Of a stretch of DNA of 64,000 nucleotides, positions 13,265-22,032 are shown piece after piece. The notes beneath the pieces were generated by a model. The model saw only the letters and a program-made list of their open reading frames with translations. It did not search any database and was not told where the DNA came from. The first letter of the stretch is position 1, and the number at the start of each line of letters is the position of its first letter. Origin of the DNA: Streptomyces diastaticus subsp. diastaticus (GTDB lineage Bacteria > Actinomycetota > Actinomycetes > Streptomycetales > Streptomycetaceae); the NCBI RefSeq assembly GCF_011170125.1, contig NZ_BLLN01000002.1, positions 963,501-1,027,500 on the forward strand, written 5' to 3'. The position numbers were made by a program, and so were the translations under genes.

Positions 13265-13304
13265 CAGGCGAGGTGCCCACCGGAACCGGTAGACACCTCA
13301 CCTG
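13265..13304 (-). terminator. hairpin terminator, probably the original tRNA-Pro terminator
   Basis: An 11-bp stem (CAGGCGAGGTG with CACCTCACCTG, one mismatch) encloses an inner ACCGG/CCGGT stem. Read on the minus strand it lies just downstream of the tRNA 3'-end fragment at 13315-13354. In the uninterrupted chromosome it would therefore have ended tRNA-Pro transcription; the element has moved it ~8.6 kb away from the gene. It could also end the helicase transcript. Confidence 0.6.
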
Positions 13305-13314
13305 CTGTTTCACC

Positions 13315-13354
13315 TGTCGGGGTGGCGGGATTTGAACCCACGACCTCTTCGTCC
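13315..13354 (-). other. attL: 40-bp duplicate of the tRNA-Pro 3' half
   Basis: These 40 bases are identical to 21957-21996 and comprise the tRNA-Pro 3' end from the anticodon arm through the acceptor stem and discriminator base. After base 13354 the sequence departs from the tRNA. An imperfect match (GCTGTTTC) also precedes both copies. This is the fragment left when a tRNA-targeting element integrates, so it is the distal attachment site. Confidence 0.9.
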
Positions 13355-14230: not shown

Positions 14231-14293
14231 CGAGGCCCCCGAGCTGTTGATCGAGATGTCTGACGTCTCAACAACACTGCTCGGGGGCCTCGG
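14231..14293 (+). promoter_or_regulatory. long hairpin over the IS transposase translation start
   Basis: AGGCCCCCGAG pairs with CTCGGGGGCCT. The sequence between them continues pairing imperfectly (TGTTGA with TCAACA, AGATGTC with GACGTCT). The hairpin ends at the GTG start codon. Such 5' structures in IS elements sequester the ribosome site on transcripts entering from outside and so limit transposase made after impinging transcription (known for several IS families). The role here is inferred. Confidence 0.65.
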
Positions 14294-15042
14294 TGGTTAT
14301 CTATCCTGCCGCACTCGACCTGCCGCATGCCCTCGTGGAGTGGGTGACCATGCTGGTCGTCACCCGTGAGGGCGACCGGCGCTGCAAGCTCCGTCCGTCT
14401 CAGCGTGCGATGGCGGCACTGGTGTACCTGCGCGAGCACACCACCCTGGCGAAGATCGCTGCAGGTTTCGGCATCAGCGAGTCCACCGCGCACGCGTACA
14501 CCACTGCGGTCATCGACCTGCTCGCGGAACGCGCTCCGGGTCTGCTGAAAGTTCTGCGCGAGACCGACCCGGACTTCGCCCTGCTGGACGGCACGCTGGC
14601 CGAGTGCGACCGGGTCGGGGACGGCCGGGCCGACTACTCCCACAAACACCGCCGGCACGGAGTGAACGTGCAGTTGGTCACCGACCCCGGCGGCCGGCTG
14701 CTGTGGCTCTCCCCAGCACTGCCGGGCCGGACCCATGGCCTGACCGCCGCCCGCGCCCACCGGATTATCCGCATCTGCGAGCGTCAGGACGTCCCCCTCC
14801 TGGCGGATCTCGCCTACCAGGGCGGCGGGCCCTGGTTGACCACGGGCATCAAACGCAGACCCCTGCAGGACCTGACTCCTACCGAGAAGACCCTCAACAG
14901 GGCACTGGCCGAGGCGCGAGCACCGGTCGAGCGAGGCGTCGCCCGCCTGAAGTCCTGGCGCATTTTCCGCCGGTCCCGATGCAGTCCCAACCGCATGACG
15001 TCAATCGCCAAAGCCATCCTCACCCTGGAGCGTCAACGCTGA
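14293..15042 (+). CDS. IS5-family DDE transposase
   Basis: A 249-aa transposase starting at GTG. An N-terminal HTH-containing region has [25 protein letters not shown]. The DDE domain of the Transposase_4 type follows: [14 protein letters not shown] supplies the first Asp, [10 protein letters not shown] the second and [19 protein letters not shown] the Glu. Length and motif order match intact members of the ISL2/IS1647-like group common in Streptomyces. It appears functional. A diverged, broken relative lies at 13779-14075. Confidence 0.9.
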
Positions 15043-15073
15043 AGAAGCTCAGTGGGTCCGGCATCATCCCCAT

Positions 15074-15703
15074 GTGATTGTGATGCAAGCCGTTCTGGAG
15101 ATCTCCGCAGCCGACGACTTCGCGCTCTGGCCTGTTCGCGAGCACGAGTCATATGGCTACCTCGTGCTGAACGGGGAGCTCACTCCGGCGGAGGTCGGCA
15201 CGGCGGTTATGCAGATCGCCGACTGCAACGACTTCGAGCCGGAGGAGGAGCACGGGCCGTGCCCGACCGACCCGCTCGGCGCCTTCCTGCACGGCTTGCT
15301 CACCATGCCTGACTTGTTCGCCGCCGGCGGCTTCCGGGTGACCGACAACGCCACCGACATCGTCTTCGTCGAGCCGGGCTGCTGCAACGGCTTGGAGACC
15401 TGGCGCGACTGGCTGGAGGTGCTCAACGGCACCGGCTGCGCCTACTTCGGCCACGATCCGTCCTCGACGGCTGAACGTCTTGGAGACATCGTCCGGCTGA
15501 CGCTCGACGCCCACAAGACGGACAGCAGCCTGGTGATCGAGCTGTCGGTAGACCAGATAGGCACGCTCGTCACCGGCGCCCAGCAGGATTTGCAGGACTT
15601 CCTCAGCCTTGCCGAAACCTGGGCTGAACAACACCTGCCGGCACACGCTGCCGCCGTCACTGCCGCCCTGGCACGGGCACTGGACCTGGTGCCTACATCA
15701 TGA
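15074..15703 (+). CDS. hypothetical protein, element cargo
   Basis: A 209-aa acidic protein starting at GTG 15074 or ATG 15083. It begins with strand-like AVLEISAADDFALWPV, then HESYGYLVLNGELTP. A Cys/Glu-rich loop (DCNDFEPEEEHGPCPTD) and VEPGCCNGLETWRDWLEVL follow, and it ends with a helical region (DLQDFLSLAETWAEQHLPAHAAAVTAALARAL). No enzyme motif was found; the family is unrecognised. It is coupled to the next gene by ATGA, so the two products probably work together. The immediately preceding IS (ending at 15050) may have replaced its native promoter. Confidence 0.75.
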   Translation: MIVMQAVLEISAADDFALWPVREHESYGYLVLNGELTPAEVGTAVMQIADCNDFEPEEEHGPCPTDPLGAFLHGLLTMPDLFAAGGFRVTDNATDIVFVEPGCCNGLETWRDWLEVLNGTGCAYFGHDPSSTAERLGDIVRLTLDAHKTDSSLVIELSVDQIGTLVTGAQQDLQDFLSLAETWAEQHLPAHAAAVTAALARALDLVPTS

Positions 15704-16362
15704 CCAGCTTCGTGACCCACCGAGCTCGCGTGCACGACGCCCGGCTCCCTCTCCACCGGCGGCACAGCGCGTTGCGCACTTGCCTCACCATTTTTGCTCC
15801 CTACGGCTTGCGGGCGACATACCACCACCTCACGCTCAGCGCGGCGATCCCCCGTCGGTTGGAGGCGGACCCGGACGCGCTAGCTGTTCTGTCCGGGGCG
15901 GTGGAGGAACTGCACGAGGCGCGGGTGCTGTGGCTCGTGCGGGCAGACGAGTACGCAGCGCAGCGCCGGGCTGAGAAGCAGGCTGGGCGGCGGGCTGTAC
16001 CGAACCCTCGGCCGTGGTGGCTGCAGAGCTGGTGGGAAGGCCCCGACCGGGCCTGGTTCGAAGACCCGTTTCGCCACCCGTCGCTGCGTCTGTCCGAGTA
16101 CGTCCGGCGGCAGAACGCGATTTTGGACGGTGCTGATCCGCCCGGCTGCCCGGCTTGTGGGGATGAGGGACCACGAGTGCTGAGCTCGACCGGGCACGGT
16201 TGGGTCGAGCTGTGCCGTGGGTGCGCGCGGGCGCTGGCACCATGTCCGTGCGGGCAGCGGCACCGGTTCGTGCCGGAGACCCCGTTCCACTGGAACGAAA
16301 TCTGGCGACGGGCGCACATGAGCGATGACGGCACACCGAACCCACATTGGCCTGCGGGCTAG
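15700..16362 (+). CDS. hypothetical zinc-ribbon protein, coupled to upstream gene
   Basis: A 220-aa basic protein whose ATG overlaps the preceding stop. The N-terminal half is Arg/His-rich and helical (RAYHHLTLSAAIP-like stretch, VEELHEARVLWLVRADEY). Residues ~146-187 carry Cys pairs CPACGDEG, CRGCARAL and CPCGQRH that could bind one or two zinc ions. A Trp-rich segment (PWWLQSWWEG) precedes them. The combination suggests nucleic-acid or protein binding, but the family is not recognised. It forms a two-gene cargo unit with the 15074 gene. Confidence 0.75.
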   Translation: MTSFVTHRARVHDARLPLHRRHSALRTCLTIFAPYGLRATYHHLTLSAAIPRRLEADPDALAVLSGAVEELHEARVLWLVRADEYAAQRRAEKQAGRRAVPNPRPWWLQSWWEGPDRAWFEDPFRHPSLRLSEYVRRQNAILDGADPPGCPACGDEGPRVLSSTGHGWVELCRGCARALAPCPCGQRHRFVPETPFHWNEIWRRAHMSDDGTPNPHWPAG

Positions 16363-16489
16363 CCGGTTGGATGCGGCACGGGGGGCTTGAGTGTGGCTGA
16401 TCAGCTGGGTGGTGCGCTCTTCAGATCGTTGCCCGGCGCTCCTCGTAGCGAAGAGGTATCACGGACACTGCTGGGAGGTCGCCAGCTGG

Positions 16490-17002
16490 TCACCACACGT
16501 CGACGGACCAGACGTCGCCCCTCTGATGTCCGTCTGGATCTGGGTCGTCTGACCCGTATGGGTCAGGGTCAGCGACGACGTGGATGCGGGCGGCGGACGC
16601 GGATACGCGAAAGCAGTCCATGTCACTCGACGTGTTGTGCTTGTCGAGTTCGAACGTGTGACCCAGGGCCAGGATGGCGGTCTGCAGTTCCTTGAAGGGG
16701 ACTCTGGGTACAAATTCCCCGTACGCTCGCGAGAGCGGGGACGGCACGGTGCTCGGGGACTGGTCGTACAGCAGTCGTTGGATCTTCACGCCGAAGCCGA
16801 AGCACGACATCTGCCCTCCTGGCTGGTCCGGCGAGAAGTTGATTTCCACGAGCCCGTAGTCCCGCCGCAGTAGGCCACCACCGGGAACATCGAGGCATGT
16901 CGCCCCCAGGGCGGCTTCCCAGGTTTCCGGGGCGGCACCGAGGCCAACTCCCAGGACCTCACCGCAAACGGCGACGTGAGCGTAGAAGTCCAAAGCGGAC
17001 AC
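16490..17002 (-). CDS. small hypothetical protein, possible orphan immunity-type protein
   Basis: A 170-aa acidic soluble protein beginning MSALDFYAHVAVCGEVLG. It has motifs LDVPGGGLLRRDYGLVEINF, MSCFGFGVKIQRL, YGEFVPRVPF and VVADPDPYGSDDPDP. There is no signal peptide, TM helix or catalytic motif. Small acidic proteins of this appearance often occur in Streptomyces polymorphic-toxin loci as immunity genes, but no toxin is nearby, so that is inference only. It is oriented opposite to its neighbours within the element. The 16363-16489 gap to its left holds nothing identifiable. Confidence 0.65.
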   Translation of the reverse strand: MSALDFYAHVAVCGEVLGVGLGAAPETWEAALGATCLDVPGGGLLRRDYGLVEINFSPDQPGGQMSCFGFGVKIQRLLYDQSPSTVPSPLSRAYGEFVPRVPFKELQTAILALGHTFELDKHNTSSDMDCFRVSASAARIHVVADPDPYGSDDPDPDGHQRGDVWSVDVW

Positions 17003-17330
17003 CCGCCAACTCCCTCAACTATCCGGACAGGGCACCCCTTGCTGATCTCCGCACAGGACAGGCGGACCAGCGCCCAGTATTCGGTGATCGTACAGAGCAG
17101 CCTGTCAGGGCAGTCGCCAGGTGAGTTCGTCGCCGTCGGCGAAGCCGAAGTCCCAGGCGGGATGCGTCTTTCAGATCAGCTGTGGTCTTCCCGATCCTCC
17201 TGGCAGAACCGGGCTTCGCTCACCATGTTCCGTCAGCTAGCCCGGAACCCGCGCGTGGGACCGCCGCAGCCATCAGCTGGCATGCAGGTTCCGGCTTACC
17301 AACCTTCAGGATTCCGGGAACCGGCGCGCT
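17003..17330. other. gene-poor junction with a C-terminal coding remnant
   Basis: No intact gene is visible. On the minus strand at about 17108-17173 a short open stretch ends with PAWDFGFADGDELTWRLP and a stop, closed upstream by another stop. It looks like the C-terminal tail of a lost gene. Its right edge joins abruptly to the GGDEF coding sequence near 17331, which suggests a deletion or recombination junction. Confidence 0.45.
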
Positions 17331-17696
17331 TCCGACCTGGACGACTTCAAGGCCGTCAACGACACCCACGGCCACGCCGCCGGCGACGCCGTCATCACCG
17401 CCACCGCCCACCGGCTCACCCGCTGGACCGGCGCCCACGGCATCACCGCCCGACTCGGCGGAGACGAGTTCGCCACCGCCCTCACCAGCCTCACCCCCAC
17501 CACCGGCCTGGCCGCACTCCGCGAAGCCCTGCACCGCCCCGTCGCCCACCACGGCCGGTGGATCGACACCAGCGCCTCCCTCGGCATCTGCCACCTGACC
17601 GACCTCCCGGCCCCCACCCTCACCGACGCCCTCGCCGCAGCCGACGCGGACATGTACGCGGACAAGGGCCACGGCCGCCGCAACAACCACCACTGA
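17331..17696 (+). pseudogene. 5'-truncated GGDEF-domain (diguanylate cyclase) gene
   Basis: The frame reads SDLDDFKAVNDTHGHAAGD, then TARLGGDEFATAL, IDTSASLGICHL and DADMYADKGHGR before the stop. These are the Mg/GTP-binding Asp-Phe-Lys and Asn-Asp motifs, the GGDEF signature and the C-terminal helix of a diguanylate cyclase. The first ~40 residues of the domain, any sensor region and a credible start are missing; similarity begins near 17331. The catalytic residues themselves are intact. It may still be expressed by fusion to an upstream start, but is most likely inactive. Confidence 0.8.
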
Positions 17697-18236: not shown

Positions 18237-18431
18237 ATGGCCGACCTGACCCCCACCCCCGACCGCCCTGGCCTCCACGTCACCAAGCCGGACCCCACGA
18301 CCCCGGCCACCGCCACCGCCGTCTGCCACTGCGGCGCCACGGCCACCGCCACCGGCGACAACCAGGTCCGCGCCCTGGTCGAGGGCTACACCGCGAACCA
18401 CGGTCCCGCCCACAGCAAGGGGGCCAAGTGA
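18237..18431 (+). CDS. small mobile-element protein
   Basis: A 64-aa protein from ATG 18237 to the TGA at 18429-18431. It has a TAVCHCGATATATGD segment with two Cys and ends in LVEGYTANHGPAHSKGAK. Short proteins of this type are typical of the region upstream of rep in Streptomyces integrative elements. Function unknown. Its stop overlaps the start region of the methylase, so the two were translationally coupled. Confidence 0.65.
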   Translation: MADLTPTPDRPGLHVTKPDPTTPATATAVCHCGATATATGDNQVRALVEGYTANHGPAHSKGAK

Positions 18432-19096
18432 TGGCTGCCACGCTCTCCAATGGCCTGCGGGTGCTGGACCTGTACTGCTGCCAGGGCGGCGCCGCCGCCG
18501 GATACGCCGCGGCCGGCTTCGAAGTGACCGGCGTCGATATCGCCCCGCAGCCCCGCTACCCCTACCGCTTCATCCAGGCCGACGCCATCGCCTTCGCCCG
18601 CGAGCACGGAGCCGAGTTCGACTTCATCCACGCCTCCCCGCCCTGCCAGCTCGACTCCGACTGCCAGCGGCTCCAGGGCAACACCCACCCCGACCTCATC
18701 GGACCCACCCGCACCGCACTCGAAGCCACCGGCCGCCCGTTCGTCATCGAGAACGTACGCGGCGCCCTGCCCAAACTCCGCAACCCCACCCTGTTGTGCG
18801 GCGCCATGTTCAGCCTGCGCACATACCGCCACCGCTACTTCGAGCCCGGCGGCGGCCTCACCATCCCTCAGCCCGGCCACCCCGCCCACACAGCGCTCCA
18901 GGCCAAAATGGGCTGACCCGTCCCGCCCGGGCACTACGGCCAGTTCGTCGGCAACTTCTCCGGCGTCTCCCTGGCCCGACAGGTCATGAGCGTGACCTGG
19001 ATGAACCGCGACGGCATCCGCGAATGCATCCCCCCGGCCTACACCCACCACATCGCCCGCACCCTGGCCACCGCCCGCCAAGAGGTGGCCGCATGA
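18431..19096 (+). pseudogene. DNA (cytosine-5) methyltransferase-like gene split by an in-frame TGA
   Basis: From ATG 18431 (or GTG 18428) the frame encodes motif I LDLYCCQGGAAAGYAAAGFEV, catalytic SPPCQ, ENVRGALPKL and TYRHRYFEPGG. It then meets TGA at 18914-18916 after QAKMG. The same frame continues without further stops as PVPPGHYGQFVGNFSGVSLA ... HHIARTLATARQEVAA to the TGA at 19094-19096. One base substitution (for example CGA to TGA) therefore truncates a ~221-aa protein to ~161. Core catalytic motifs remain, so partial activity or readthrough (TGA followed by C) is conceivable. Such methylases often protect mobile elements from restriction. Confidence 0.8.
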
Positions 19097-20482
19097 CCCA
19101 CCCCGCCCTCCAGGCGGCGGGCCTGGACCCGGCCACCCTCACCGACGTGTGCAAGGTGGCCGGATCCCCCGGCTTCGACCGCTGGCAAGACCAGATCCGC
19201 CGCGCCGGCGGCTGCTCCGACCCCATCCGCCTCACCGGCACCACCAAAACCCTCGACGCCGCCACCCGCCGAGTCCTCCACACTTACACCACCGACCACG
19301 AACCCGGCGCCGTCCTGCGCATCGCCTGCGGCAACCGCCGCGCCTCCCGCTGCCCCGCCTGCGCCTGGACCTACGCCGGCGACACCTACCACCTCATCCG
19401 CGCCGGCCTCAGCGGCGACCCCGCCAAAGGCACTCCCCACACCATCCGCGACCACCCCCGCGTCTTCGCCACACTCACCGCCCCGTCGTTCGGCCCGGTT
19501 CACAACCGGCCTGGCACCCGCACCTGCCGCTGCGGTACCCAGCACTCGGAGGACGCCCCGGAGCTGGGCACACCGCTCGACCCGGACACGTACGACTACG
19601 CCGGCGCGGTGCTCTGGAACAACCACGCCCCCGACCTGTGGCGCTACTTCACGATCTACCTCCGCCGCGAAATCGCCCGCCGCGCTGGCCTCACCCAGAA
19701 AGCCGTCGAAACGGATGACGGCGTGGAAGTGGACGGCGCCGCGCTTCTGGTATTCGGCGACCTTGCCGAAGGACACCCGGGACTGTTCGTGGGGACCGGA
19801 CGGACCCGACTCGCCCCCACCCGCATGGGCCACCCTCGACCTCCTCACCGACGCCATCCACGCCGCCGCCAGCCGCGCACAAGTCGACCTGCCCCCGTCC
19901 GGCAACCACCCCGCCCGCACCCTGCGGTGGGGCACCCAGCTCGACGTACGCCCCATCCGCGCCTTCGACAGCGGAGAGGACATCACCGAACAGGCCGTCG
20001 CCTCCTACGTCGCCAAATACGCCACCAAAGCCGCCGAAACCACCGGCACCGTCGACCGCCGCATCGGCAACAAAGAAGCCCTCCCCCTCCTCAACATTGC
20101 CGACCACCCCCGCCGCCTCATCGAAGCCTGCCTCGACCTCCACCCCCACTACCCCGACCGCAAACTCCGCGACTGGGCCCACATGCTCGGCTTCCGCGGC
20201 CACTTCTCCACCAAATCCCGCCACTACTCCACCACCCTCGGCGAACTGCGCCAGACCCGCGCCGACTACCGCGCAACCCAACAACGCGCCGCACTCGGCC
20301 CCCCCGACCCCGACGACGAACAAGCCACCACGCTCACCCTCGCCCACTGGACCTACGCCGGCCACGGCCACACCCCCGGCGAATCCTGGCTCGCCGCCAA
20401 CATCCACCGCGACCTCCAACACAACCGCGAAACCGCCCGCGAACACCGCGCCGAACTGCTGTGTGCTGAGGAGGAATGGTGA
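19093..20482 (+). pseudogene. RepSA-like replication initiator disrupted by an internal inversion
   Basis: The ATG overlaps the methylase stop (ATGA). The frame encodes a RepSA-type N-terminal region: CGNRRASRCPACAWTYAGDTYHLIRAGL, FATLTAPSFGPVH, RTCRCGTQH, then WRYFTIYLRREIARRAGLTQK. At about 19703 sense is lost, and from ~19798 it resumes in a different frame: PDGPDSPPPAWATLDLL, VASYVAKYATKAAETTG and HMLGFRGHFSTKSRHYSTTL to the stop at 20482. The missing central piece, including the metal-binding HUH motif, is found on the opposite strand of the intervening ~95 bp. RepSA proteins replicate AICEs by a rolling-circle-like mechanism; this copy should be inactive. Confidence 0.88.
19703..19797 (-). 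other. ~95-bp micro-inversion carrying the HUH motif of the rep gene
   Basis: The reverse complement of this segment encodes RVSFGKVAEYQKRG followed by AVHFHAVIRFDG, the HUH (His-hydrophobic-His) metal-binding core of RepSA-type initiators. The flanking forward sequence encodes the parts expected immediately before (GLTQK) and after (PDGPDSPPPAWAT). Re-inverting the segment restores a continuous protein apart from a one-base frame discrepancy. Junctions are ambiguous by ~3 bp because GAC/GTC and CCGG micro-homologies occur at both ends. Confidence 0.85.
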
Positions 20483-20697
20483 CCGTACTCGACATGGGAG
20501 GACCGGTGATCCCGCCGGCCCTGTACCGCGTGCCCGACGCTGTGAAGGTGTTGGGGCTGAGCCGGAGCGTCGTTTACGACTTGATCCGGGCCGGTCGTCT
20601 TCGGACCGTCAAGGAAGGCCGGACCCGTCTCGTGCCGACTTCCGCCATCACTGACTACGTTGCGTTCCTGGAGCGGGAAGCCGGGGCCGAGCAGTGA
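20476..20697 (+). CDS. xis: excisionase-family HTH protein (Xis)
   Basis: A 73-aa protein of the MerR-like/AlpA HTH_17 type: LYRVPDAVKVLGLSRSVVYDLIRAGRLRTVKEGRTRLVP is the winged-helix core. Its ATG overlaps the end of rep, and its stop overlaps the integrase start. This rep-xis-int order is characteristic of AICEs. Xis directs the integrase toward excision by binding the attachment-site arms. It appears intact, so excision may still be possible if the integrase is expressed. Confidence 0.88.
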   Translation: MVTVLDMGGPVIPPALYRVPDAVKVLGLSRSVVYDLIRAGRLRTVKEGRTRLVPTSAITDYVAFLEREAGAEQ

Positions 20698-21863
20698 CCA
20701 AGCGGCGCAGTCGTGGTGATGGTGGCCTGCACTGGGACGAGAAGCGGCAACGGTGGATCGCCACGGCGAATCTGGGCTTCCATCCGAGCGGAAAGCGGAT
20801 CGTGAAGCGGGGGAGTGGCAAGACCAAGACGGAGGCGAAGAACAAGCTTAAGGAGGTGTTGCGGGACCACGAGGACGGTCTCGCGATCGCGCCCACCAAC
20901 TACACGGGCAAGGACGCTGTGACGGACTGGCTCACGTACGGCCTGGTGGGCATCGACCCCAGCACGGCCAAGACCTGCGCGATCCTGAGTCAGACGCATG
21001 TCATCCCGCCCCTCGGCGCTCGCAAGCTCCGTGACCTGAGCGCTGAGGATGTCGACCGCTGGCTGGCCGCGAAGGCGAAGACGCTCAGCACACGCACCCT
21101 TCAGGCGATCCACTCGTGCCTTAACCGCGCGGTCAAGCGGGCCATGGCTCGGGACAAGGTGAAGCGCAACGTCGTCGAGTTGTGCTCGGTCCCCCAGGGG
21201 CGAGCCGGGCGCCCCTCAAAGGCGCTCGCCTTCGCTCAGGCTGAGGCCGTGCTCAAGGGGGCTGAGGGGACCTCGATGTACGCGTACATCGTCGTTGCCC
21301 TGCTGACTGGTGCCCGTACCGAGGAATTGCGGGCGCTCACCTGGGACCACGTCTTCCTCAAGGGCAAGCCGGACGTGGACCCGCCGCAGCCTCCGCACAT
21401 CGCGGTGTGGCGCTCGGTCCGGCGAGGTGGGGACACCAAGACGCGGAAGTCCCGGCGCACGCTCGCTCTGCCGGAGCGGTGCGTCGAAGCCCTCTGGCAG
21501 CAGTTCGAAGATCAGGGCTGGGATCGGCTCGCCGCGGGCGACAGATGGGAGGAACACGGGCTTGTTTTCGCCTCGGCCATGGGCAAGCCGTTGGACGCTG
21601 CCAACGTCCGCCGAGCCTTCCGCCAGGCGCTCAAGGGCATCGCCGGGATCAACGCCGACGAGTGGACGCCCCGAGAACTCCGGCACAGCTTCGTGTCCCT
21701 GCTGTCCGACCGCGGCGTCCCGCTGGAAGTGATCTCCCGGCTTGTCGGGCACTCCGGGACGGCCGTGACCGAGGAGGTCTATCGGAAGCAGATCCGGCCC
21801 GTGATCCAGACTGGCGCTGTAGTCATGGACGGGATCTTCGGCGCAGATCCGCAGCGGCCGTAG
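20694..21863 (+). CDS. int: tyrosine site-specific integrase
   Basis: A 389-aa tyrosine recombinase. The N-terminus is an arm-binding AP2-like region (HWDEKRQRWIATANLGF, KTEAKNKLKEVLRDHEDGL). The core-binding domain begins near TVTDWLTYGL-like residues and DLSAEDVDRWLAAKAKTLS. The catalytic domain has Arg I in LLTGARTEELRALTW, the box-II region TPRELRHSFVSLL, LVGHSG and the nucleophile in TEEVYRKQIRP. It ends 95 bp before attR, as usual for integrases that use the tRNA next to them. The xis stop overlaps its start, so they are co-translated. It looks complete. Confidence 0.92.
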   Translation: MTKRRSRGDGGLHWDEKRQRWIATANLGFHPSGKRIVKRGSGKTKTEAKNKLKEVLRDHEDGLAIAPTNYTGKDAVTDWLTYGLVGIDPSTAKTCAILSQTHVIPPLGARKLRDLSAEDVDRWLAAKAKTLSTRTLQAIHSCLNRAVKRAMARDKVKRNVVELCSVPQGRAGRPSKALAFAQAEAVLKGAEGTSMYAYIVVALLTGARTEELRALTWDHVFLKGKPDVDPPQPPHIAVWRSVRRGGDTKTRKSRRTLALPERCVEALWQQFEDQGWDRLAAGDRWEEHGLVFASAMGKPLDAANVRRAFRQALKGIAGINADEWTPRELRHSFVSLLSDRGVPLEVISRLVGHSGTAVTEEVYRKQIRPVIQTGAVVMDGIFGADPQRP

Positions 21864-21910: not shown

Positions 21911-21942
21911 CGCCCATCCTACTCGCGTGAGTAGGATGGGCG
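21911..21942. terminator. perfect 14-bp-stem hairpin between int and attR
   Basis: CGCCCATCCTACTC and GAGTAGGATGGGCG form a perfect 14-bp stem around a GCGT loop, followed by CTGCTGTTTCTCTG. It probably ends int transcription from the left. It also supplies a terminator for the tRNA-Pro transcript from the right, replacing the native one displaced to 13265-13304. Confidence 0.75.
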
Positions 21943-21956
21943 ACCTGCTGTTTCTC

Positions 21957-21996
21957 TGTCGGGGTGGCGGGATTTGAACCCACGACCTCTTCGTCC
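21957..21996 (-). other. attR within the intact tRNA-Pro
   Basis: These 40 bases are identical to 13315-13354 and include the tRNA 3' half. The tRNA at this end is complete, so the element carried a copy of the 3' half that restored the gene on integration. The crossover must lie within these 40 bp, most likely near the anticodon loop. Confidence 0.88.
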
Positions 21997-22032
21997 CGAA
22001 CGAAGCGCGCTGCCAAGCTGCGCTACACCCCG
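21959..22032 (-). tRNA. tRNA-Pro (anticodon CGG)
   Basis: On the minus strand a 74-nt cloverleaf folds. The acceptor stem is CGGGGTG/CACCCCG with discriminator A, and the D-arm is GCGC...GCGC. The anticodon stem CTTCG/CGAAG holds the loop TTCGGGA, giving anticodon CGG. The T-arm is GTGGG/CCCGC with loop TTCAAAT. No CCA is encoded, as is usual in Streptomyces. It serves as the integration site of the element to its left. Confidence 0.95.

Follow-up and report, generated by a model that had tools for sequence, protein, structure and literature searches.

The window, a stretch of 64,000 nucleotides of Streptomyces diastaticus subsp. diastaticus DNA, carries at positions 19093–20482 a RepSA-type (PF20199) replication initiator gene whose native start is the ATG at 19093. 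The gene belongs to an 8.7-kb element enclosed by att repeats at a tRNA-Pro gene (Table 1). Of the features by which an AICE is recognised, the integrase, the att repeats at a tRNA gene and Rep are all present, the last in broken form. None of the six FtsK/SpoIIIE (PF01580) matches of the genome falls within the element, and in view of this lack of an FtsK/SpoIIIE-type Tra inside we regard it as a remnant rather than a full AICE. Its left part (15050–17398) is 95.9% identical to the Streptomyces linear plasmid NZ_CP107900.1, and positions 17333–17695 gave no Pfam match. The methyltransferase-like gene upstream of rep is interrupted by a nonsense codon at 18914–18916, where five aligned relatives have CGN, two of the five with an alignment gap in or beside the codon. 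Judged by its gene content, the element is a decaying AICE remnant in which the damage to rep, an inversion, is one of several lesions.

Table 1. Features of the element and of its initiator gene (positions in the window)
Feature	Position	Strand	Basis and remarks
att repeat, far end of element	13300–13354	+	96% over 55 nt to 21942–21996
DDE transposase gene	14293–15042		Profile search
Methyltransferase-like gene upstream of rep, TGA at 18914	18428–19096	+	Weak Methyltransf_23 match below the Pfam cut-off
Initiator gene, 5' part	19093–19704	+	204 codons without stop; PF20199 2–197, E 7.4e-70; identity to P0001 199/204
ORF left from native ATG	19093–20469	+	204 native residues, inverted stretch, out-of-frame residues; 458 codons + stop
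Inverted segment with HUH (HFH) metal-binding core	19706–19793	-	~88 nt; homologue comparison, PF20199 minus-strand match
Initiator gene, 3' part	19796–20482	+	Frame differs from 5' part; PF20199 230–437, E 8.3e-61; identity to P0001 212/221
Small helix-turn-helix (xis-like) gene, open	20479–20697	+	72 codons + stop; HTH_17, E 2.5e-10
Tyrosine integrase gene, open	20694–21863	+	389 aa; Phage_integrase, E 1.2e-19
att repeat overlapping tRNA gene 3' end	21942–21996	+	96% over 55 nt to 13300–13354
tRNA-Pro (CGG), integration target	21958–22032	-	3' end overlapped by att repeat 21942–21996

The RepSA profile is covered over almost its full length, by two forward matches (the second spanning 19796–20479) and by a third on the opposite strand (profile positions 173–233); in a search of the own genome this minus-strand match lies over the junction, flanked by the two plus-strand ones. 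The 3' part contains the sequence YVAKYATK, which we take to be motif 3. The metal-binding (HUH) and tyrosine motifs do not share a frame, as the HUH core is encoded by the other strand and the two flanks are read in different frames. The reverse complement of 19705–19791 reads HEQSRVSFGKVAEYQKRGAVHFHAVIRFD and agrees in 29 of 29 residues with the core of P0001, the nearest relative, whereas the three forward readings of the middle match this protein poorly (4/6, 5/14 and 5/10 at best) and reach at most 8/17 against P0001–P0007. A preceding sequence-only reading had described both flanks as RepSA-like in forward direction and the middle as the missing HUH core in reverse complement, in agreement with these data.

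The breakpoints were placed by comparison with the homologous locus L002. The upstream alignment stops at 19705 and the downstream one begins at 19793, with the middle aligned in reverse between 19793 and 19703; L002 has 90 nt where the window has 88, which gives a net loss of 2 nt. Bases fitting both sides number three at the left junction (19703–19705) and one at the right (19793), and by these the ends of the inverted segment are uncertain. Both overlaps are judged against relatives, not against the true ancestor. The inversion proposed from the letters alone is thus upheld, although its extent, given there as 19703–19797, is slightly shorter (~88 nt, 19706–19793), and 3–4 bases of micro-homology at both junctions were not recovered. 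As a 3-nt match is common by chance, microhomology is compatible with the junctions but not demonstrated by them.

Because of the net loss of 2 nt, the two flanks stand in different frames, and the downstream frame forms a separate ORF starting at 19715. The damage is hidden because no stop interrupts the upstream frame for 458 codons, a length close to the 462–466 residues of P0001–P0007; in the open reading frame list it is enclosed by an ORF at 18796–20469. Motif 2 is described as a putative divalent-cation site and motif 3 as the carrier of the catalytic tyrosine in PMC3218068. A protein for which no metal site can be built would presumably be unable to nick the origin, and from the loss of motif 2 together with the frame shift we infer that the element has lost its self-replication. 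The sequence-only reading had likewise held replication to be destroyed and the integration and excision genes to be spared; the integrase and helix-turn-helix frames are indeed open, with their domains detected. That reading did not include the loss of 2 nt, the frame shift, the chimaeric ORF of nearly full length or the decay elsewhere in the element. Apparently, a GC-rich genome can conceal a dead gene behind an open frame of nearly full length, and such an initiator could pass as intact where genes are annotated by length or from an N-terminal match.

Homologous loci were collected by a DNA search with the gene and a search with its N-terminal part and supplemented with the second copy of the own genome (L123); a sample drawn by searches with the gene itself favours relatives. 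When the three pieces of the window's gene were located by blastn, the middle one aligned in the direction opposite to both flanks in 108 of 111 loci, which therefore have the normal orientation and include one duplicate (L060 equals L003). The remaining three comprise the window itself (L001 and L111) and L029, which has no upstream match and whose middle is normal relative to its downstream part. One frame is open across the three pieces in 106 of 110 loci, three being broken otherwise (L050, L059 and L123) and L029 unusable. In a subset of 40 of these 110 loci, the spacing between upstream piece and core is 3 nt throughout, and that between core and downstream piece is 3 nt in 38 (exceptions L013 and L030). 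Scanning the opposite strand of 108 rep genes returned no match at the core; all 40 matches fell at nt 62–137, where a hairpin lies close to the start of the gene. We saw no homologue naturally devoid of the core among the 120 proteins most similar to the initiator out of 2272 hits, each of which keeps at least 20 of the 29 core identities. Twenty plasmid records match the initiator gene, eight of them over at least 80% of its length, and its N-terminal part found no match in phage records. The alignment to intact RepSA homologues which the earlier reading had proposed confirmed the inversion, at the level of sequence, relative to the homologues surveyed.

Three of the surveyed genes carry lesions of their own. 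In L059 (6636–6793, Streptomyces resistomycificus DSM 40133) an exact 79-bp tandem duplication over the same HUH core breaks the frame. In L050 (Streptomyces hyderabadensis) the C-terminal half of the rep frame is broken by a different lesion; this locus had been considered as an intact element with Tra and was dismissed, as the sole match of its 516-aa ORF, to DndB, stayed below threshold. The second RepSA copy of the own assembly (L123, G000:C3:69047–70238) is divided into two frames by an apparent extra base in a C run, possibly a sequencing error. Together with the inversion in the window this means that neither RepSA gene of the assembly is intact.

Such a possible error in the second copy, and the state of the genome as a 7.08-Mb assembly of nine contigs, would be in keeping with an assembly or read-chimaera artefact, the DNA of the strain having the normal orientation. 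We consider this unlikely: the breakpoints have no inverted repeat that could let an assembler flip the piece, the site lies deep within a contig of 1.57 Mb, of which the window occupies positions 963501–1027500, and the only other own-genome match among those listed (three of five) is 82% identical. The loss of 2 nt, moreover, would be unlike the clean flip of an assembly block. That the inversion is real in the strain is, in our judgement, probable.

An intact core on the opposite strand could also suggest a reversible intragenic inverton that toggles replication of the element, and intragenic inversions have been reported from bacteria (Chanin et al. 2024, mentioned in PMC11868660). Up to 10 nt from the breakpoints, perfect inverted repeats reach no more than 5 nt, a length that 77 of 300 control positions match or surpass, in line with the earlier impression that the repeats are too short for a switch; repeats with one or two mismatches, or in wider flanks, are matched or surpassed at no fewer than 149 of 300. 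Within 19640–19860 no pair of at least 6 nt connects both breakpoints, and the att core shares a stretch of at most 7 nt with the junctions. No flipped state was seen among the other 108 loci that could be used. A 31-nt junction pattern (up to three mismatches) was present in one of 392 Streptomyces genomes, namely the own one, a search that more diverged copies could escape, and an exact 24-mer of the junction had no counterpart in viral contigs. The chimaeric stretch shared words with 574 candidate proteins, a listing outside which genes annotated as pseudogenes fall, and none scored; a second isolate with the same junction was thus not found among these genomes and proteins. Both the lack of inverted repeats above chance and the restriction of the junction pattern to the own genome speak against a switch, and, given the net difference of 2 nt from the relatives, flipping the segment back would by itself leave the flanks out of one frame. 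On repeats, frame and survey we reject the reversible switch, whose probability appears close to negligible.

Among the matches listed, the named proteins closest to the product of the initiator gene come from S. albidoflavus. P0001–P0007, drawn from the best 120 of 2272 hits, comprise five S. albidoflavus and two Streptomyces sp. proteins with identities of 192–199/204 upstream, 28 or 29/29 in the reversed core and 210–215/220–225 downstream. The five S. albidoflavus proteins listed have the core in normal order at 94–98% upstream identity. As all 29 core residues equal those of the nearest relative and near relatives keep intact copies, the inversion looks recent from these comparisons. The pN/pS of the core is 0.040 against the 20 nearest loci, which leave out the S. 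albidoflavus proteins, and 0.073 within those 20; the former value indicates that constraint on the core lasted until recent times. In the flanks pN/pS is slightly raised (0.37 and 0.39 versus 0.32 and 0.34), a weak signal.

The 5' coding part of repSA contains in addition a strong hairpin (window 19101–19190, about codons 9–30). Compared with synonymous-codon shuffles, the hairpin has a median z of -3.9, and 85 of the 106 loci examined lie below -2, against 9 of 106 for a control segment; the loci are related, include one duplicate pair and are hence not independent. The hairpin of the window was matched in stability by 2 of 500 shuffles. A role as replication origin or in translation control is possible for this candidate structure.

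Whether the loss of rep was selected can be discussed with regard to pSAM2, where the operon of repSA, xis and int is switched on by Pra, whose gene pra is in turn repressed by KorSA (PMC8584621). If the element had lost its regulators, loss of rep might have been favoured. The plasmid-like left part, the absence of an FtsK/SpoIIIE match from the element and the breakage of other rep genes in 3 of 109 loci with all three pieces would fit such a history, but neutral decay accounts for the same facts and we regard selection as improbable. A further proposal, that the repSA HUH segment is a rearrangement hot spot through which elements repeatedly shut down or toggle their replication with int and xis left open, draws on the inversion described here and the exact 79-nt tandem duplication in S. 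resistomycificus; it seems very improbable to us.

The reading we prefer, and hold with considerable confidence, is a single, recent, non-programmed inversion of ~88 nt with a net loss of 2 nt in the repSA-type gene of a tRNA-Pro AICE remnant. On this reading the event is a one-off of nearly reciprocal geometry and probably arose through two template switches at a replication fork or through break repair with end joining. In starving E. coli, inversions have been described that are likewise nearly reciprocal, their junctions carrying small deletions or insertions, and that were explained by paired template switches (PMC3161906), and 8 of 59 definite human–chimpanzee microinversions have flanking inverted repeats of only 3 nt (PMC8755829). 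In coding genes of yeast, spacer inversions by template switching occurred only with repeat arms of more than 9 bp (PMC8604942). Arms of this length are absent from the breakpoints in the window, which counts against template switching. End joining is possible, as a Ku gene is present in the genome, and in S. ambofaciens NHEJ genes were reported to be of importance for resistance to damage (PMC5124664).

Compared with the RepSA-type rolling-circle initiators of AICEs (pSAM2; PF20199), the gene resembles the family in its flanks, in its reverse-complemented core and in the adjoining helix-turn-helix, tyrosine integrase and tRNA genes; it differs in the inverted HUH core and the shifted frame, by which it would no longer be a working member. 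The inversions of starving E. coli (PMC3161906) likewise lack long repeats, have inexact junctions and lose few bases. There, a few tens of bp were deleted or inserted near lac in an experimental setting, whereas here 2 nt were lost around an 88-nt segment within one gene and the mechanism is deduced. Human–chimpanzee microinversions (PMC8755829) also turn a short segment into its reverse complement, some with 3-nt repeats; those described measure 17–33 nt, while the present one is bacterial, ~88 nt long and accompanied by the loss of 2 nt. With bacterial intragenic invertons (Chanin et al. 2024) the window shares an inversion inside a coding sequence but, unlike them, has ends without inverted repeats above chance, no second state in 108 loci and flanks in different frames. 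Our literature search returned no comparable micro-inversion in a bacterial gene, which does not imply absence from print; PMC2483231, considered as a bacterial case, was set aside, as the term concerns mammals there. Most likely, then, the inversion is no switch but a mutation of the ordinary sort. It is a known kind of event, well resolved here in a bacterium by close intact relatives, a data point on how integrative elements lose mobility and a clean example of how a mobile element can die.
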